Under the pieces are notes generated by a model, which had not been told where the DNA came from, ran no database searches, and saw only the letters and a list, made by a program, of their open reading frames with translations. The position numbers and the translations under genes were made by a program. From Geminicoccaceae bacterium (GTDB lineage: Bacteria > Pseudomonadota > Alphaproteobacteria > Geminicoccales > Geminicoccaceae), in assembly GCA_020445645.1 (NCBI GenBank), contig JAGRGG010000078.1:1-35056 (forward strand): a DNA stretch of 35,056 nt. The letters run 5' to 3'. Position 1 is the first letter of the stretch. The number at the start of each line of letters is the position of its first letter. Below are positions 9,320-15,634 of this stretch, piece by piece.

Positions 9320-10216
9320 CTACTTCCGCCGGAACCCGTCCCAGCTGTAGAGCCCGAGCGCCACCCAGATCGCGGCGAAGGTGGCGATCTTCAGGGGCTC
9401 CGCCGGCTCCTTGAAGACGAAGACGCCCTCCAGGAACAGGAGGCTCGGGATCGTGTAGAGGATGAGCCCCACCGTCGCCAGCGGCAGGCGCTTGGCGCCC
9501 AGGTTGAAGAGGATGAGCGGGAGCACGGTGATCGGCCCCGCGAGGACGAGGAGCAGCGAGAGGGGGAGATCCGTCCCGAACGCGAGCCCCTGGCGGGCGC
9601 CGACGTAGACGAGAAAGCCGGTCACGATCGGCAGGGTGATGAGGCACTCGGCCATGAGGCCGACGGCGGGACCGACGGGCAGGCGCTTGCGGACGAGGCC
9701 GTAGCCGGCGAAGCTGAAAGCAAGCGTGAGGGCGACGACGGGCACGAGCCCGAGCGAGACGACCATGTTCAGGACGGCGAGCCCGGCCAGGACCACCGCC
9801 GCCGTCTGCAAGGGCCGCAGCCGCTCCTTCAGGACGACGACGCCGAACAGCACCGAGAGCAGCGGGCTCATGAAGTAGCCGAGGCTCGCGTCGAGCACGT
9901 TGCCGGCGAAGACGGCGACCACGTAGACGGTCCAGTTGAGCGTGATGAGCAGGCTCGTGGCGACGAGGCCGAGGAGCGTGCCCCGGCGGGTCAGCGCCCG
10001 GTGGAGCGGGCGCCACTCGCGGCGCGCCCAGAGCACGACGGCCAGCGCCGGCACCGCCCAGAGCACCCGGTGCGCCATCGCCTCCAGGGGGTGCGCGCCT
10101 CCCAGCAGCTTGAAGTAGAACGGGAAGACGCCCCAGAGCAGGCAGGCGCCGGCGACGGCGAGGAACCCGCTCCTCGCCCCGGAACCGGCGACCGGCGCCC
10201 CGGCCGTCGCCTTCAC
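9320..10216 (-). CDS. rarD: RarD/EamA-family membrane transporter
   Basis: The 298-residue protein is strongly hydrophobic, with about ten membrane segments. It carries the RarD landmarks LLWGVFPFYFKLL, EAMAHRVLWAVP, LNWTVYVVAV, LDASLGYFMSPLLSVLFGVVVLKERL, LAFSFAGYGLVRK and a C-terminal FKEPAEPLKIATFAAIWVALGLYSWD. RarD proteins are drug/metabolite superfamily exporters or importers whose physiological substrates are mostly unknown. The GTG start at 10214-10216 overlaps the mobA stop (GTGA), so rarD is translated as the last gene of fdhD-mobA-rarD. A functional link to molybdenum cofactor is not implied by the family. Confidence 0.92.
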   Translation of the reverse strand: MKATAGAPVAGSGARSGFLAVAGACLLWGVFPFYFKLLGGAHPLEAMAHRVLWAVPALAVVLWARREWRPLHRALTRRGTLLGLVATSLLITLNWTVYVVAVFAGNVLDASLGYFMSPLLSVLFGVVVLKERLRPLQTAAVVLAGLAVLNMVVSLGLVPVVALTLAFSFAGYGLVRKRLPVGPAVGLMAECLITLPIVTGFLVYVGARQGLAFGTDLPLSLLLVLAGPITVLPLILFNLGAKRLPLATVGLILYTIPSLLFLEGVFVFKEPAEPLKIATFAAIWVALGLYSWDGFRRK

Positions 10217-10836
10217 GGCGCCGCCCCCGCGACGGCTTCCGCCCTGGCCAGATCGTCCGCCGTGTTGACGTTGAAGAACGGATCGAACGGCACCGCGTCG
10301 AATGCCACGGAAACGACCCCGTGCCGCCCCGTGAAGCGGTCGATCTTGCGCTCGCCCCCCTCCAGCGCCGCCCGCAGATCGTCCATGAGCGCGACGGGCC
10401 AGAGGCCGAAGACCGGATGCGTCCGCCCATCGGAGGCGGCGCAGGCGAGGGGGGCGCCCCCCGCCGCGATGGGCTCCAGGAGCCGGGCGACCAGATCCCC
10501 CGGAAAGAACGGCGTGTCGGCGGCGAAGGTGGCGAGCCACCGCGCGTCCGGGTGGCGCTCGGTTGCCCAGGCCATCCCGGTAAGCACGCCCGCGAGCGGC
10601 CCGGCGAAGCCTTCGACCACGTCGGCCCGCACGTCGAGCCCGGGCGGGGGCAGCCGCGCCGGGTCGCCGTTCACGTTGAGGAGCAGATCCTTCACCTGCG
10701 GCCGCGCCCGCTCGATCACGCGCTCGAGCAGCGTCACGCCCCCGACCGGACGGAGGAACTTGTCGCCGCCGCCCATCCGCCGCCCGAGACCGCCCGCGAG
10801 CACGACCCCGACGACGTTCTTTTCCGCCTCAGTCAT
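10213..10836 (-). CDS. mobA: Molybdenum cofactor guanylyltransferase MobA
   Basis: The 207-residue nucleotidyltransferase starts MTEAEKNVVGVVLAGGLGRRMGGGDKFL, with the GTP-binding loop LAGGLGRRMGGGDK. It then has GPLAGVLTGMAWA and FAADTPFFPGDLV, with the metal-binding aspartate in the position used by MobA. It attaches GMP to molybdopterin to form the guanine dinucleotide cofactor used by DMSO-reductase-family enzymes such as formate dehydrogenase. The ATG at 10834-10836 overlaps the fdhD end by eight bases. Its partner mobB is 9 kb away at 1359. Confidence 0.94.
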   Translation of the reverse strand: MTEAEKNVVGVVLAGGLGRRMGGGDKFLRPVGGVTLLERVIERARPQVKDLLLNVNGDPARLPPPGLDVRADVVEGFAGPLAGVLTGMAWATERHPDARWLATFAADTPFFPGDLVARLLEPIAAGGAPLACAASDGRTHPVFGLWPVALMDDLRAALEGGERKIDRFTGRHGVVSVAFDAVPFDPFFNVNTADDLARAEAVAGAAP

Positions 10837-11710
10837 CGCCCTGGCTCGCCTTGCGACGGAACCGGGCGTCCTCGTCCTCCCCGCCGTGCAGGGGCGGCGC
10901 GTCGAAGACGATGCGCCCCGCGCCTGACAGCACCGTGAAGCGGCGCCCGCGCGAACGCCCGACGAGGGTGAGCCCGGCCCGACGGGCAAGCTCGACCCCG
11001 CTCGCCGTGAAGCCCGAGCGCGAGACCAGGATCGGTATGCCCATCTGCACCGTCTTGATCACCATCTCCGAGGTGAGCCGCCCCGTCGTGTAGAACGTCT
11101 TGTCGCCCCCCTCCATGCCGTGCCGGAACATCCAGCCCCGGATCTTGTCGACCGCGTTGTGCCGCCCGACGTCCTCCATGTAGAGGAGGAGGTCCGGCCC
11201 CTGGCAGAGCGCGCAGCCGTGGATCGCCCCCGCCTTCAGGTAGAGGGAAGGACAGGTGTTGATCCGCTTGACGAGCGGGTAGAGGTCCGCCGTGTGCAGC
11301 CGGACATCCTTCGGCAAATGCGCCTCGTCGAAGCGCTCCATCATGTCGCCGAAGAGCGTGCCCTGCGCGCAGCCCGAGGTCTGGACGCGCTTTTTCAGCT
11401 TCGCCTCGTAGTCCGTGACCCGGGCCGTCCGCACGACGACGACCTCCAGTTCCTCGTCGTACTCGATCCCGGTCACGTCGTCGTCCGCGAGCAGCATGTT
11501 CTGGTTCAACAGGTAGCCCAGCGCCAGCTCCTCCGGGTGGTCGCCGATCGTGAGCAGGGTGACGATCTCCTGCCCGTTCAGGAACAGCGTGAGCGGCCGC
11601 TCCATGACGACGCTCGCCGTCACGGGGGCACCGTTCTCGTCGACCCCTTCCACGGCGACGGTGAGGCGCGGGTCGTCGGGATCGGGCAGGACGAGGGGCT
11701 GGTCGGACAC
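10829..11710 (-). CDS. fdhD: Formate dehydrogenase sulfur carrier FdhD
   Basis: The 293-residue product matches FdhD, which passes sulfur from a cysteine desulfurase to the molybdenum cofactor of formate dehydrogenases. Landmarks are PLTLFLNGQEIVTLL, GDHPEELALGYLLNQ, SGCAQGTLF, GCALCQGPDLLLYMEDVGRHNAVDKI and FYTTGRLTSEMV followed by LVSRSGFTASGVELA. The GCALCQ stretch has a Cys-x-x-Cys pair near residue 175. The start appears to be GTG at 11708-11710 with AAGG a few bases upstream. It leads the fdhD-mobA-rarD operon and is divergent from the PLP-enzyme operon. No formate dehydrogenase is in the window. Confidence 0.94.
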   Translation of the reverse strand: MSDQPLVLPDPDDPRLTVAVEGVDENGAPVTASVVMERPLTLFLNGQEIVTLLTIGDHPEELALGYLLNQNMLLADDDVTGIEYDEELEVVVVRTARVTDYEAKLKKRVQTSGCAQGTLFGDMMERFDEAHLPKDVRLHTADLYPLVKRINTCPSLYLKAGAIHGCALCQGPDLLLYMEDVGRHNAVDKIRGWMFRHGMEGGDKTFYTTGRLTSEMVIKTVQMGIPILVSRSGFTASGVELARRAGLTLVGRSRGRRFTVLSGAGRIVFDAPPLHGGEDEDARFRRKASQGDD

Positions 11711-11915: not shown

Positions 11916-14126
11916 ATGCAACGCCCGTCCAAACCAACGCTCCCCGTCCCGCCCCTCGGCCCCGGCGCGGCCATGTCGCGGGACGAGACGCTGCGCCCGC
12001 TCCTCGACCGGCTCTCCGGCGCCCCGGCGGCCGTCGACGAGGACATGCCGGGGCGCGCCGTCGACAAGGTGGTCCCGGACCCGGCGCTTCGGGCACTCCT
12101 CCTCGCCGACCCGGCGCTCGCCGCCCTGCTGCCGAACGTTCGCGGCACCCTCGCGTTCGACGCCGACGCCGCCCCCTTCCGGGTCGGCCCCTCGACGATC
12201 GGCCTCGCCCCGGGCCTGGCCGCAAGCCCCGGCGCGCTCGTCGCGGCGGCGCGGTGGGCGATCGAGGTCGCCGACGCGGCGGACGCGGCCCTGCCGGCGC
12301 GGGCACGGCGCGCCGTCCTGGCCCTCGACCACGGCGCCGCCCTCGCGCACGCTTTGGGCGCCGCCGACCGGCGGGCGTTCCTGGCGGCGCTGCCGGGCGG
12401 CCTGCACGATCGTCTCGCCGCCGTGCCACCCGCCGCCGGGGCCGCCCCGTTGCCGACGGCGCTGCGGGCCTTGCGCGACTTGGTGACGGCGCCCTGGGCG
12501 GACGCGCCCGCGGCCGACGACGCGCTCCCGGCGGACGAAGCCCCGCCCGAACTCGCGCTCCCGCTGGAGCGGCTCCTGGTGGCCGGCGGCGACGGCCGGC
12601 TGCGCGTCGACGCGGCGATCGGCCTCAACCGCTACGGTACCGCGCCCCGGCCCCGGCCGGAGGCGATCCACTTCTCCTCCTCGACCGCGTCGAGCATCAG
12701 CGACTACGGCTTTGGGCTGTGCGACGCCCTGCGCCGCCGGCTGCTGCGGCAGGGCCTCGCCGAGGGCGTTTCCGCCGCCGCCCTCCGGGCCGGCCTCGCC
12801 GACCGCGTGCGCCGGGAGATCGCGGCGGTGCTCGGACTGGCGCCGGGGGAGGCCGACGCGGTGCTGGCGGCGTCCGGTACCGATACCGAACTGCTCGCGG
12901 TTCTCCTCGCCCTCGCGGCCGACGGCGCCCGGCCCCTGACCAACGTGCTGGTGGCGCCCGAGGAGACCGGTCGCGGCGTGGTGCTGGCGGGGGAGGGCCG
13001 GTACTTCGACGACGAGGCGGCGACCGGGCTGCCGGTGCGCAAGGGCGAATCGGCGTGGCCCGGCCGGGACATCGAGACCCGCGCCGTGGCGATCCGCGAC
13101 GCCGCCGGCGGGATCCGCCCGACCGACGCGATCGCCGACGAGGTGCGGCGCGAGGTCGAGGGCGCGCTCGCCGCCGGCCGCCGCGTGCTCCTCCACGTCG
13201 TGCTCGGCTCCAAGACCGGGATCAGCGCGCCGCCCCTGGAGGTCGTCGAGGGGCTGTGCCGCTCGGCCGGGGGGCGCCTCGACGTCGTCGTCGACGCCTG
13301 CCAGCTCCGGGTCAGCCCCTCGCTCCTGGGGTCGCTCGTGCGGCGCGGCTGGATGGTCCAGGTCACGGGCTCCAAGTTCCTGACCGGCCCGCCCTTCTCC
13401 GGCGCCCTCGTCGTGCCGCCTTCGCTGCGCGGGCGGCGGGACGCCGCGGCGGCGCTGCTCGCGGCGGCGCCGGCGGTGAGCCGGCCGGAGGACTGGCCGT
13501 CTGCGTGGCGCGCGGACCCGCGCACGCCGAACCCGCCGGCCAGCTTCGGGGCGCTCTTCCGCTGGGCGGCGGCGCTGGGCGAGGCGTGCCTGCTCCACGC
13601 CTTGCCGCCAACGCTGCACAAGGCCGCGTTCGAGCGGTTCCGGGCCGCCCTCCACGACCGCCTCGACGCGAGCGAGGTGCTGGTGCCCCTGCCGACCCCG
13701 GACGGCCACCTCGCCGACCTGGGCGAGGAGCCGCCGGGGCTGTCGGCCGGCACCATCATCTGCTTCACCCTCGCGGTCGGCGACGCCGGGCAGGGGCGCC
13801 GCGCCTCGCTCGACGAGTGCCAGACCCTGTTCGAGCTCCTGAACCGCGACGCCTCGGGGCTCCTGCCGGACCTCACGCCCGCCGAGCGGCGCCTCGCGGC
13901 GCGGCCGATGCACATCGGCCAGCCGGTGGCGCTGCGGCCCGACAGCGCCGGGGCGCCGACCGTGCTGCGGCTCGTGGTGGGCGCCCGCTTCTTCACGATC
14001 GTCGGCTACCCGGCGGACGGCGACACCGAAGCGACGCTGGCGAGCGAGATCGGCGACGCGGTCGCCGCGCTCGACAAGCTCGAACTTCTGGTCCGCCGCT
14101 TCGCGCGGCTCCGGCCGGCCGCGTGA
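11916..14126 (+). CDS. Uncharacterised PLP fold-type I (class V-like) protein, 736 residues
   Basis: I do not recognise a named family. The C-terminal two thirds look like a class V aminotransferase/cysteine desulfurase fold. They have a NRYGTAPRPRPEAIHFSSST entry, a cofactor-phosphate loop SGTDTELLA, VVVDACQLRVSP with Asp460 placed to contact the pyridine nitrogen, and TGSKFLTGPPFSGALVVP with Lys487 as the likely Schiff-base lysine. The first 230 residues are Ala/Leu-rich helix of unknown role, and a further 200 follow the lysine. I chose the ATG at 11916 with AGGAG upstream; 11973 is an alternative. The decarboxylase gene follows 29 bases later. Transamination, desulfuration or lyase chemistry are all possible. 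Confidence 0.75.
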   Translation: MQRPSKPTLPVPPLGPGAAMSRDETLRPLLDRLSGAPAAVDEDMPGRAVDKVVPDPALRALLLADPALAALLPNVRGTLAFDADAAPFRVGPSTIGLAPGLAASPGALVAAARWAIEVADAADAALPARARRAVLALDHGAALAHALGAADRRAFLAALPGGLHDRLAAVPPAAGAAPLPTALRALRDLVTAPWADAPAADDALPADEAPPELALPLERLLVAGGDGRLRVDAAIGLNRYGTAPRPRPEAIHFSSSTASSISDYGFGLCDALRRRLLRQGLAEGVSAAALRAGLADRVRREIAAVLGLAPGEADAVLAASGTDTELLAVLLALAADGARPLTNVLVAPEETGRGVVLAGEGRYFDDEAATGLPVRKGESAWPGRDIETRAVAIRDAAGGIRPTDAIADEVRREVEGALAAGRRVLLHVVLGSKTGISAPPLEVVEGLCRSAGGRLDVVVDACQLRVSPSLLGSLVRRGWMVQVTGSKFLTGPPFSGALVVPPSLRGRRDAAAALLAAAPAVSRPEDWPSAWRADPRTPNPPASFGALFRWAAALGEACLLHALPPTLHKAAFERFRAALHDRLDASEVLVPLPTPDGHLADLGEEPPGLSAGTIICFTLAVGDAGQGRRASLDECQTLFELLNRDASGLLPDLTPAERRLAARPMHIGQPVALRPDSAGAPTVLRLVVGARFFTIVGYPADGDTEATLASEIGDAVAALDKLELLVRRFARLRPAA

Positions 14127-14155
14127 AGATGGAACGGTCCGAAGGAGAGAAGCCC

Positions 14156-15634
14156 ATGACGACCGACGGACGGGCGCCGACCGGGGGCCGGCTCGACCCC
14201 GAGGACTGGGAGGCGTTCCGCGCCACCTGCCACCGGGCCGTGGACGGGCTCGTCGACTGGTGGGCGGACGTGCGCGGGCGCCCCGTGTGGCGACCGGTCC
14301 CGGACGGGGTCAAGGCGGCGCTCGCCGTGCCGCCGCCGAAGCAGGGCATGGCGCTGGACGAGGTCCACGCCCTCTTCGAGCGGCTGGTCCTGCCCTACCC
14401 GACCGGCAACACCCACCCCCGCTTCATGGGCTGGGTCCACGGCTCGGGCACCCCGGCGGGGGCGCTCGCCGAACTGCTGGCCGGCGCGCTCGACGCCAAT
14501 CTGGGCGGGCGCGAGCACGCGCCGATCCACGTCGAGCGGCAGGTGATCGAGTGGTCGCGGCGGATCTTCGGCTTTCCCGAAGGGACCAGCGGCCTCCTCG
14601 TCAGCGGCACCTCGATGGCGACGCTGATCGCGCTCGCCGCCGCGCGCCAGGCGCACGCGGACGGGGACGTGCGGCGCGAGGGGCTGGGGACGGGCCGCTA
14701 CCGGCTCGTGGGCTACGCCTCCGCCGAGGCGCACAGCTCGGCCGCCAAGGCGTTCGAGCTGCTCGGGCTCGGCCGCGAGGCCCTGCGCCCGGTCCCGGTC
14801 GACGCCGGCTACCGCATGGACGTCGAGGCCCTCCGGCCGATGATCGCGGCCGACCGCGCCTCGGGCCTGCAACCCTTCTGCGTCGTCGGCACGGCAGGAA
14901 CCGTCAACCTCGGGGCGATCGACGACCTGGACGCCATCGCCGGGGTCTGCCGCGAGGAGGCTTTGTGGATGCACGTCGACGGCGCGTTCGGCGCGGTCGC
15001 CGTGCTGGTCCCGGATCTGGCGCCCCGGCTCGCCGGCATCGAGCGGGCCAATTCGCTCGCCTTCGACTTCCACAAGTGGCTGCACGTCCCCTACGACGCC
15101 GGCTGCGTCCTGATCCGCGACGAGCGGGCGCACCGGGCCGCCTTCGCCGCGCGCCCCGACTACCTGGCCGGGGCCGAGCGCGGCCTCGCCGGCGGCGAGC
15201 CCTGGTTCTGCGAGTACGGGCCCGAGCTGTCGCGCGGCTTTCGCGCCCTCAAGGTCTGGTTCACCCTCCTGACGCACGGGCTCGACCGGCTCGGCGCCGC
15301 CGTCGCCGAGAACTGCGCCCAGGCCCGTTACCTCGGCGGGCGGGTCGCTGCCACGCCGGAGCTGGAGCTTCTGGCGCCGGTTTCGCTCAACATCGCCTGC
15401 TTCCGCTTCAACAACGCCCCGGCGGCGGACCTGGACGACCTCAACGCCCGGATCGTCGTCGAGCTCCACGAGCGGGGCATCGCCGCGCCTTCGACCACGC
15501 GGGTCGACGGCCGTCTCGCCATCCGCGCCTGCCTGTGCAACCACCGCACCGAGCGCGCCGACCTCGACGCGCTCGTCGACGGCGTCCTCGCCCTCGGCCG
15601 CACCCTTCGGCACGGGGCCGCGGCCCGGGAATGA
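14156..15634 (+). CDS. Group II PLP-dependent amino acid decarboxylase
   Basis: The 492-residue protein belongs to the aromatic-amino-acid/glutamate decarboxylase family. It has HPRFMGWVHGSGTPAGALAE, IEWSRRIFGFPEGTSGLLVSGTSMATLIAL, VVGTAGTVNLGAIDDL, MHVDGAFGA with the cofactor aspartate, and FDFHKWLHVPYDAGCVLIRD with Schiff-base Lys307. The C-terminal RACLCNHRTERADLD is also typical. The substrate is not decided by what I can see. A clear AAGGAG lies eight bases before the ATG. It sits 29 bases behind the class V-like PLP protein and 4 bases ahead of the penicillin-binding protein, so one transcript is likely. The product may be an amine. Confidence 0.9.
   Translation: MTTDGRAPTGGRLDPEDWEAFRATCHRAVDGLVDWWADVRGRPVWRPVPDGVKAALAVPPPKQGMALDEVHALFERLVLPYPTGNTHPRFMGWVHGSGTPAGALAELLAGALDANLGGREHAPIHVERQVIEWSRRIFGFPEGTSGLLVSGTSMATLIALAAARQAHADGDVRREGLGTGRYRLVGYASAEAHSSAAKAFELLGLGREALRPVPVDAGYRMDVEALRPMIAADRASGLQPFCVVGTAGTVNLGAIDDLDAIAGVCREEALWMHVDGAFGAVAVLVPDLAPRLAGIERANSLAFDFHKWLHVPYDAGCVLIRDERAHRAAFAARPDYLAGAERGLAGGEPWFCEYGPELSRGFRALKVWFTLLTHGLDRLGAAVAENCAQARYLGGRVAATPELELLAPVSLNIACFRFNNAPAADLDDLNARIVVELHERGIAAPSTTRVDGRLAIRACLCNHRTERADLDALVDGVLALGRTLRHGAAARE

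Follow-up and report, generated by a model that had tools for sequence, protein, structure and literature searches.

L-Cysteate is known to be formed from O-phosphoserine and sulfite in archaea, for coenzyme M, and by CapA of Capnocytophaga, for capnine (PMC10191378, PMC12713407), while the synthesis of taurine in bacteria has been described as sporadic and poorly understood (PMC10356861). Here, we analyse a two-gene operon in the window, which is a whole stretch of 35,056 nucleotides from a Geminicoccaceae bacterium (contig JAGRGG010000078.1). Gene A encodes a 736-residue protein of an unnamed family with the core of a pyridoxal-5'-phosphate (PLP) enzyme, and gene B encodes a group II PLP decarboxylase. 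We propose that A and B constitute a taurine-forming module, with A converting phosphoserine and sulfite to cysteate, B converting cysteate to taurine and an ATP-grasp ligase attaching the product to glycans, a reading that we consider slightly favoured by the evidence. The wider proposal is that A is the founder of a new PLP family and, as an enzyme of fold type I, the third cysteate synthase to have arisen independently, which together with B and an ATP-grasp ligase would provide an undescribed route from serine and sulfite to taurine (or a close sulfonate) for capsules, flagella and peptides in several phyla; for this proposal we regard the chances as even.

Sequence and predicted structure of gene A

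The features of the gene pair, and the gene divergent from it, are as follows.

11916..14126, + strand: gene A, product of 736 amino acids, from a fold-type-I PLP family that has no name; its proposed role is that of an O-phosphoserine-dependent cysteate synthase
11916..12560, + strand: N-terminal accessory domain of A, about residues 1-215, from the alignment and the predicted fold
12873..12890, + strand: SGTDTE loop, A residues 320-325, a motif of the PLP phosphate-binding type, with the role inferred from fold-type-I PLP enzymes
13293..13304, + strand: Asp460-Ala-Cys-Gln463 of A, expected contact to the PLP pyridine nitrogen, class-V-like DAxQ, by family knowledge
13374..13376, + strand: Lys487 of A, expected Schiff-base lysine
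14142..14149, + strand: Shine-Dalgarno-like AAGGAGAG ahead of gene B, from the sequence
14156..15634, + strand: gene B, group II (PF00282) PLP decarboxylase of 492 amino acids; proposed cysteate decarboxylase
10829-11710, - strand: fdhD, divergent from A, as had been noted before

The original prediction, made from the sequence alone, had described a 736-residue PLP protein with the SGTDTE loop, Asp460 and Lys487, followed after 29 bases by a group II decarboxylase. The positions proved to be exact, with Asp460 (within VVVDACQ) and Lys487 (within TGSKF) being invariant in 52 relatives, and the open reading frames and the Pfam match of B confirm the decarboxylase behind an intergenic gap of 29 bases (14127-14155), where the ribosome-binding stretch AAGGAGAG is located.

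In sequence searches A gave no match in Pfam even at E 10, so none to Aminotransferase class V (PF00266), nothing meaningful in NCBIfam (best 7.5 bits), and no match to PDB sequences, against which the profile from the 52 relatives likewise gave nothing significant. Nor was there any match of A to PALP or to NF053679, the model of the CapA-type cysteate synthase. The structure predicted by AlphaFold2 with a 52-row alignment has a mean predicted local distance difference test (pLDDT) score of 90.2 and a predicted template-modelling (TM) score of 0.93. The Foldseek comparison of this model with the PDB gave 836 matches at E <= 0.001, and the matches listed are fold-type-I PLP enzymes, with alpha-oxoamine synthases, serine hydroxymethyltransferase (SHMT), group II decarboxylases, IscS and carbon-sulfoxide lyase scoring similarly. 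The top ranks include SphA, 8-amino-7-oxononanoate synthases, SHMT and IscS at similar E-values, and the best target-normalised TM score, 0.66, is that for IscS. The predicted fold of the large domain and the invariance of Asp460 and Lys487 in 52 of 52 relatives are those of a fold-type-I PLP enzyme, and the core as modelled is outside every known subgroup. Pfam, NCBIfam, PDB and structure comparison are thus in agreement with the earlier description of a class V-like PLP protein without a named family, and by neither profile search nor structure prediction does A align end to end with a characterised family.

In the same alignment Ser320-Gly321-Thr322 is invariant and Asp460-Ala-Cys-Gln463 is present in 52 of 52 relatives. 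Other invariant residues are Asp226, Arg228, Asn238, Glu350, Arg394, Lys433, Arg465, Ser486-Lys487, Arg549, Gly668-Gln669 and Arg685, and the multiple basic residues among them would suit an anionic substrate. The N-terminal region, which had been taken to be 230 residues long, is here delimited to about 215 residues. It is conserved in most of the long relatives, with Arg113 and Glu117 invariant in the 24 that were aligned, and it is absent in short members such as those of loci L058, L061 and L063. Modelled separately, this domain has a pLDDT of 81 and gives no fold match in the PDB (best E 5.5). The profile-profile comparison of A with B showed no meaningful similarity.

A scan of genome contigs with the single sequence of A gave nothing, and a two-row alignment was then used, with which 67 A loci were found in Alpha- and Betaproteobacteria, Magnetococcales, Chlorobiota, Verrucomicrobia, Bacteroidota and Patescibacteria; altogether about 90 relatives were collected. 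Since relatives occur in Pseudomonadota, Chlorobiota, Verrucomicrobia, Bacteroidota and Patescibacteria, A is not a chance open reading frame. In a phylum sample searched with the A profile, 25 of the 398 genomes (~6%) were positive. Where annotated, the A genes of rhizobial plasmids are termed 'hypothetical protein'.

Decarboxylase B and its linkage to A

B matches Pyridoxal_deC (PF00282) at an E-value of 5.6e-56, passing the cut-off, its best PDB match is DOPA decarboxylase (3.8e-66), and the HKW lysine motif, His306-Lys307-Trp308, is invariant in the alignment of the B family. The best NCBIfam model for B is diaminobutyrate decarboxylase, with the score far below its cut-off.

For the neighbourhoods, genes were called by our own gene caller with a seeded codon model and by profile searches; the A sequences were divided into 21 divergent groups by single linkage at 45%, and neighbours were counted within 3.5 kb. 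B adjoins A in loci L007-L009, L011-L015, L041, L062 and L063, and the two form a single polypeptide in L055 (Scleromatobacter) and L070 (a Patescibacteria genome), so that 12 of the 21 groups have B next to A or fused with it, and one group has PanD instead. Among 20 genomes having A with no adjacent B, 16 have B elsewhere (48-65% identity); this is the case in all Acetobacteraceae tested, though their A loci themselves are without B. In a class sample of 385 genomes B (E <= 1e-90) occurs in 17, including 5 of the 6 A-positive genomes, the hypergeometric probability of the co-occurrence being ~5e-7 when phylogeny is ignored. The linkage of B to A is therefore kept in relatives, and the pair is, as had been supposed, a real functional unit that is conserved or fused.

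It is also noted that in L070 (3852-14590, a Patescibacteria metagenome-assembled genome) the B-A fusion stands amid NeuB-, CMP-sugar synthetase- and sugar epimerase-like genes, by eye of the nonulosonic-acid type. In the Acetobacteraceae B loci L114-L118 and L121, a transporter resembling the bile-acid:Na+ symporter family is followed by B and then by cobS/cobT-like genes; this is possibly a sulfonate or amine transporter.

Clues to the substrates of A

The first substrate is suggested by kinases. In L004, L006, L010, L012, L013 and L016 the N-terminus of A is a compact domain of the SerK/SbnI type (PDB SerK 1.6e-8 and SbnI 4e-7; NCBIfam SerK 1.6e-11, below the cut-off). In two Sinorhizobium meliloti plasmids with nonribosomal peptide synthetase (NRPS) genes, a separate SerK-type gene (37% identity, E 1e-28, PDB SerK match) directly follows A, and in Trinickia such a gene lies ~5 kb from A. 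Among the 218 loci searched, all the SerK matches are in A-bearing loci. SerK and SbnI produce O-phospho-L-serine (PMC5120207, PMC9641203), and the PTEE and MDGHHR segments of the compact domain keep candidates for Glu20 and Asp58 of SbnI, which are required for its kinase activity (PMC9641203). The ParB-like fold and the kinase motifs are common to SerK, SbnI and the A-linked domain, whereas the latter has only ~130 residues, compared with ~240 in SerK/SbnI, and is fused to a PLP enzyme; the portion consulted of a 2025 survey of ParB-fold fusions has no mention of a fusion of SerK with a PLP enzyme (PMC12704722).

The S. meliloti plasmid loci (L213:1-12802 and L216:1-12789) comprise an NRPS cluster with A, the standalone SerK-like 'ParB' protein, a SagB-type dehydrogenase and a phosphopantetheinyl transferase, and this cluster probably incorporates an unusual beta-substituted alanine. 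The locus of Trinickia mobilis (L046:1369-17561) is also an NRPS-type cluster; besides the SerK-like gene and A it has a cupin-8 protein and a PanD-type aspartate decarboxylase. PanD, a decarboxylase of an acidic amino acid, stands there directly after A.

The second substrate is suggested by genes of sulfite metabolism. In L010 and L013, from two marine rhodobacteria, the gene immediately preceding A encodes a 3'-phosphoadenosine-5'-phosphosulfate (PAPS) reductase, with scores of 243 and 265 bits against an NCBIfam cut-off of 154. In the Sulfitobacter genome of L010 this gene is a second copy, the other one being located with sulfite/nitrite reductase-type and siroheme-synthase-type genes. 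As the A-linked copy is beyond the assimilatory set, it would yield sulfite with no reductase nearby. The window genome has two genes of the PAPS-reductase family, the stronger one at C243. Moreover, in the loci L153-L155, which have B only, a cysteine-synthase-like beta-substitution enzyme adjoins B, implying that a beta-replacement enzyme can fill the slot of A, and one of the three also has a TauE/SafE sulfite exporter. We considered whether these partners are CapA and rejected it: they score as cysK, with 169-178 bits against the CapA cut-off of 600.

ATP-grasp ligases and the genomic context

An ATP-grasp ligase of some type is present beside A in 13 of the 21 groups. One candidate is f35, a protein of ~400 residues. 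Tight B - f35 - A cassettes occur in 14 of 20 further neighbourhoods, and f35 forms one polypeptide with B in L160 and with A in L023, so that each of the three pairs among A, B and f35 is found as a fusion. Weak matches to RimK-type (4e-4), Ddl and GSH-S_ATP models lie in the C-terminal half of f35, and its motifs fit ATP-grasp. The other types are ATPgrasp_ST (L011, L058, L063, L064, L193), TupA-like (L012, L016), Ddl-like (L061, L163, L200, L201) and cyanophycin-synthetase-like (L007, L014). The contexts of the A loci include capsule export, glycosyltransferases, sulfotransferases and flagellin/FlbT.

Five loci (L192, L194, L195, L196 and L159) are flagellin/FlbT loci of large alphaproteobacterial genomes, with bradyrhizobial-looking flagellins, the B - f35 - A cassette and a small conserved protein. 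The presence of the cassette there suggests a sulfonated or amine-modified flagellar glycan. The surroundings of the SerK-A gene in L010:346-5926 and L013:154-5101 resemble a capsule system of the peptide or polyglutamate type: they contain ATP-grasp proteins, one of which has an acylphosphatase domain, together with an enolase-superfamily protein and a CapA/PgsA-like protein. Searching the literature for taurine-amide capsules tied to ATP-grasp gave nothing useful.

Proposed pathway and alternatives

From the PLP families of A and B, the linkage and fusions of A, B and ATP-grasp proteins, the SerK-type partner and the extra PAPS reductase we infer the chemistry and the destination of the product. 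The SerK partner, the PAPS reductase, the B loci with cysteine-synthase-like and TauE genes and the PanD replacement are together most simply explained by the sequence phosphoserine + sulfite, cysteate, taurine and amide ligation. In this scheme A would bind O-phospho-L-serine and eliminate phosphate to give aminoacrylate, to which sulfite would then be added to give L-cysteate. Decarboxylation of cysteate by B would yield taurine (2-aminoethanesulfonate). A dedicated ATP-grasp ligase in relatives would then link the product through an amide to a carboxylate, which probably belongs to a surface glycan, a capsule or a flagellar modification, while the NRPS clusters may use the amino acid as such for a building block. 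Since the search of the window genome revealed no SerK domain, phosphoserine would have to be supplied there by another route, presumably SerC. The earlier suggestion that the pair makes a modified amine is the one that fits the evidence best.

Several observations weigh against the taurine module. In the window genome itself no SerK domain, f35 or ATPgrasp_ST was detected, the searches for SerK and f35 having been made with no positive control. SerK linkage is seen in 3 of the 21 A groups only, in three unrelated settings, and the adjacency of PAPS reductase in two related loci, i.e., in one group. B was not detected in the A genomes G352 (of the class sample), L058 and L061. The characterised enzymes closest to B are aromatic and diamino acid decarboxylases, not sulfonate ones, and those B relatives whose partner is a cysteine-synthase-like gene fall into a subclade of their own, in which the residues of the pocket differ. 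Nitrilase-like genes stand next to B in L150 (6230-7144) and L154 (7283-8164), where no A was detected and the latter of which also has the cysteine-synthase-like gene; this branch of the B family hints at cyanoalanine-type chemistry, which these neighbours fit equally well. The PanD of Trinickia may simply supply beta-alanine for the NRPS. In addition, the alpha-oxoamine synthases rank level with the class V enzymes in the Foldseek comparison of A.

Alternatively, A might make 2,3-diaminopropionate (or a different beta-substituted alanine, e.g., cyanoalanine) from O-phosphoserine, and B might decarboxylate it to ethylenediamine (or a different 2-substituted ethylamine) for amide ligation or NRPS. 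We regard this as the main rival to the taurine reading and as improbable. In staphyloferrin B, the synthesis of diaminopropionate is fed by kinases of the SbnI/SerK type, and the gene cluster of edeine, a product that contains diaminopropionate, encodes an SbnI-like protein (PMC9641203). The occurrence of A with SerK in NRPS clusters, the diaminobutyrate decarboxylase model as the best match of B, far below cut-off as it is, and the nitrilase-like neighbours in L150 and L154 are also consistent with it. It would leave unexplained, however, why an additional PAPS reductase adjoins A, why a sulfite exporter accompanies B and why PanD takes the place of B. It is also conceivable, if rather unlikely, that A carries out another type of PLP reaction (that of an aminotransferase, an epimerase or an alpha-oxoamine synthase) on an amino acid shared with B, with the resulting amine ligated by the ATP-grasp protein, since SphA, 8-amino-7-oxononanoate synthases, SHMT and IscS are ranked by Foldseek at such similar E-values and A has no sequence-level relative that would fix the reaction; the three independent links to phosphoserine kinases and the beta-substitution enzyme in the other B loci point instead to beta-replacement.

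By contrast, it had been proposed that A supplies sulfur, in the manner of a cysteine desulfurase, to the FdhD encoded divergently from it. The class-V-like DACQ motif, the structural similarity to IscS (TM 0.66 by target) and the adjacency of fdhD in the window would agree with this. In cysteine desulfurases the catalytic Cys is conserved and sits on a loop that follows the Lys in the sequence. In the 52-member alignment, however, the sole invariant Cys of A is Cys462, beside the PLP-binding Asp, and no invariant Cys occurs C-terminal to Lys487, i.e., there is no conserved catalytic Cys loop. Furthermore, the window genome has two SufS-type desulfurases away from A, and neither fdhD nor mobA stands beside A in any other collected locus, the partner of A being B instead. 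We therefore hold this proposal to be very improbable; sulfur would take part in the A/B module as sulfite and a sulfonate. It is noted separately that the window contains molybdenum-cofactor genes, recognised by eye (moeA-like, mobB, mobA and fdhD), in two places, 100-1859 and 10213-11710, and that in none of the relatives does A have such surroundings.

Comparison with known systems

If the taurine module is real, the A family would mark bacteria that make taurine in a second way, a function would be assigned to a family that is now annotated 'hypothetical protein', and sulfonated surface glycans and flagella would be predicted in rhizobia, rhodobacteria, magnetotactic and acetic acid bacteria. 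The A/B scheme is a concrete pathway that two purified proteins would suffice to test.

Taurine-capped flagellar glycans exist in Clostridium difficile, where taurine is attached via a peptidyl-amide and the cluster has a gene resembling D-Ala ligase, of the ATP-grasp type (PMC5207245). No A or B is described in that system, so that its link to the flagellin loci with A, B and f35 is by analogy only. B, having all the expected motifs, is a member of the group II PLP decarboxylases (PF00282); it forms a subfamily of its own, with 45-65% identity among the A-bearing genomes, that is far below every NCBIfam equivalog cut-off. With the class V PLP enzymes (IscS/SufS, the carbon-sulfoxide lyase Egt2, SepCysS and SerC) A shares the fold-type-I core and the DAxQ and S-K-(x)-GP motifs, IscS and carbon-sulfoxide lyase being among its better structural matches, but it differs from them in having no Aminotran_5 match and no desulfurase Cys loop, and in having an extra N-terminal domain and the motifs GLNxYG, FSSSTAS and SKTG. 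With CapA and the archaeal cysteate synthases, the proposed reaction and substrates of A are the same. Those enzymes, however, are of fold type II (PALP, threonine-synthase-related), whereas A is of fold type I, has no sequence similarity to them and gives no match to NF053679, the NCBIfam model for CapA.

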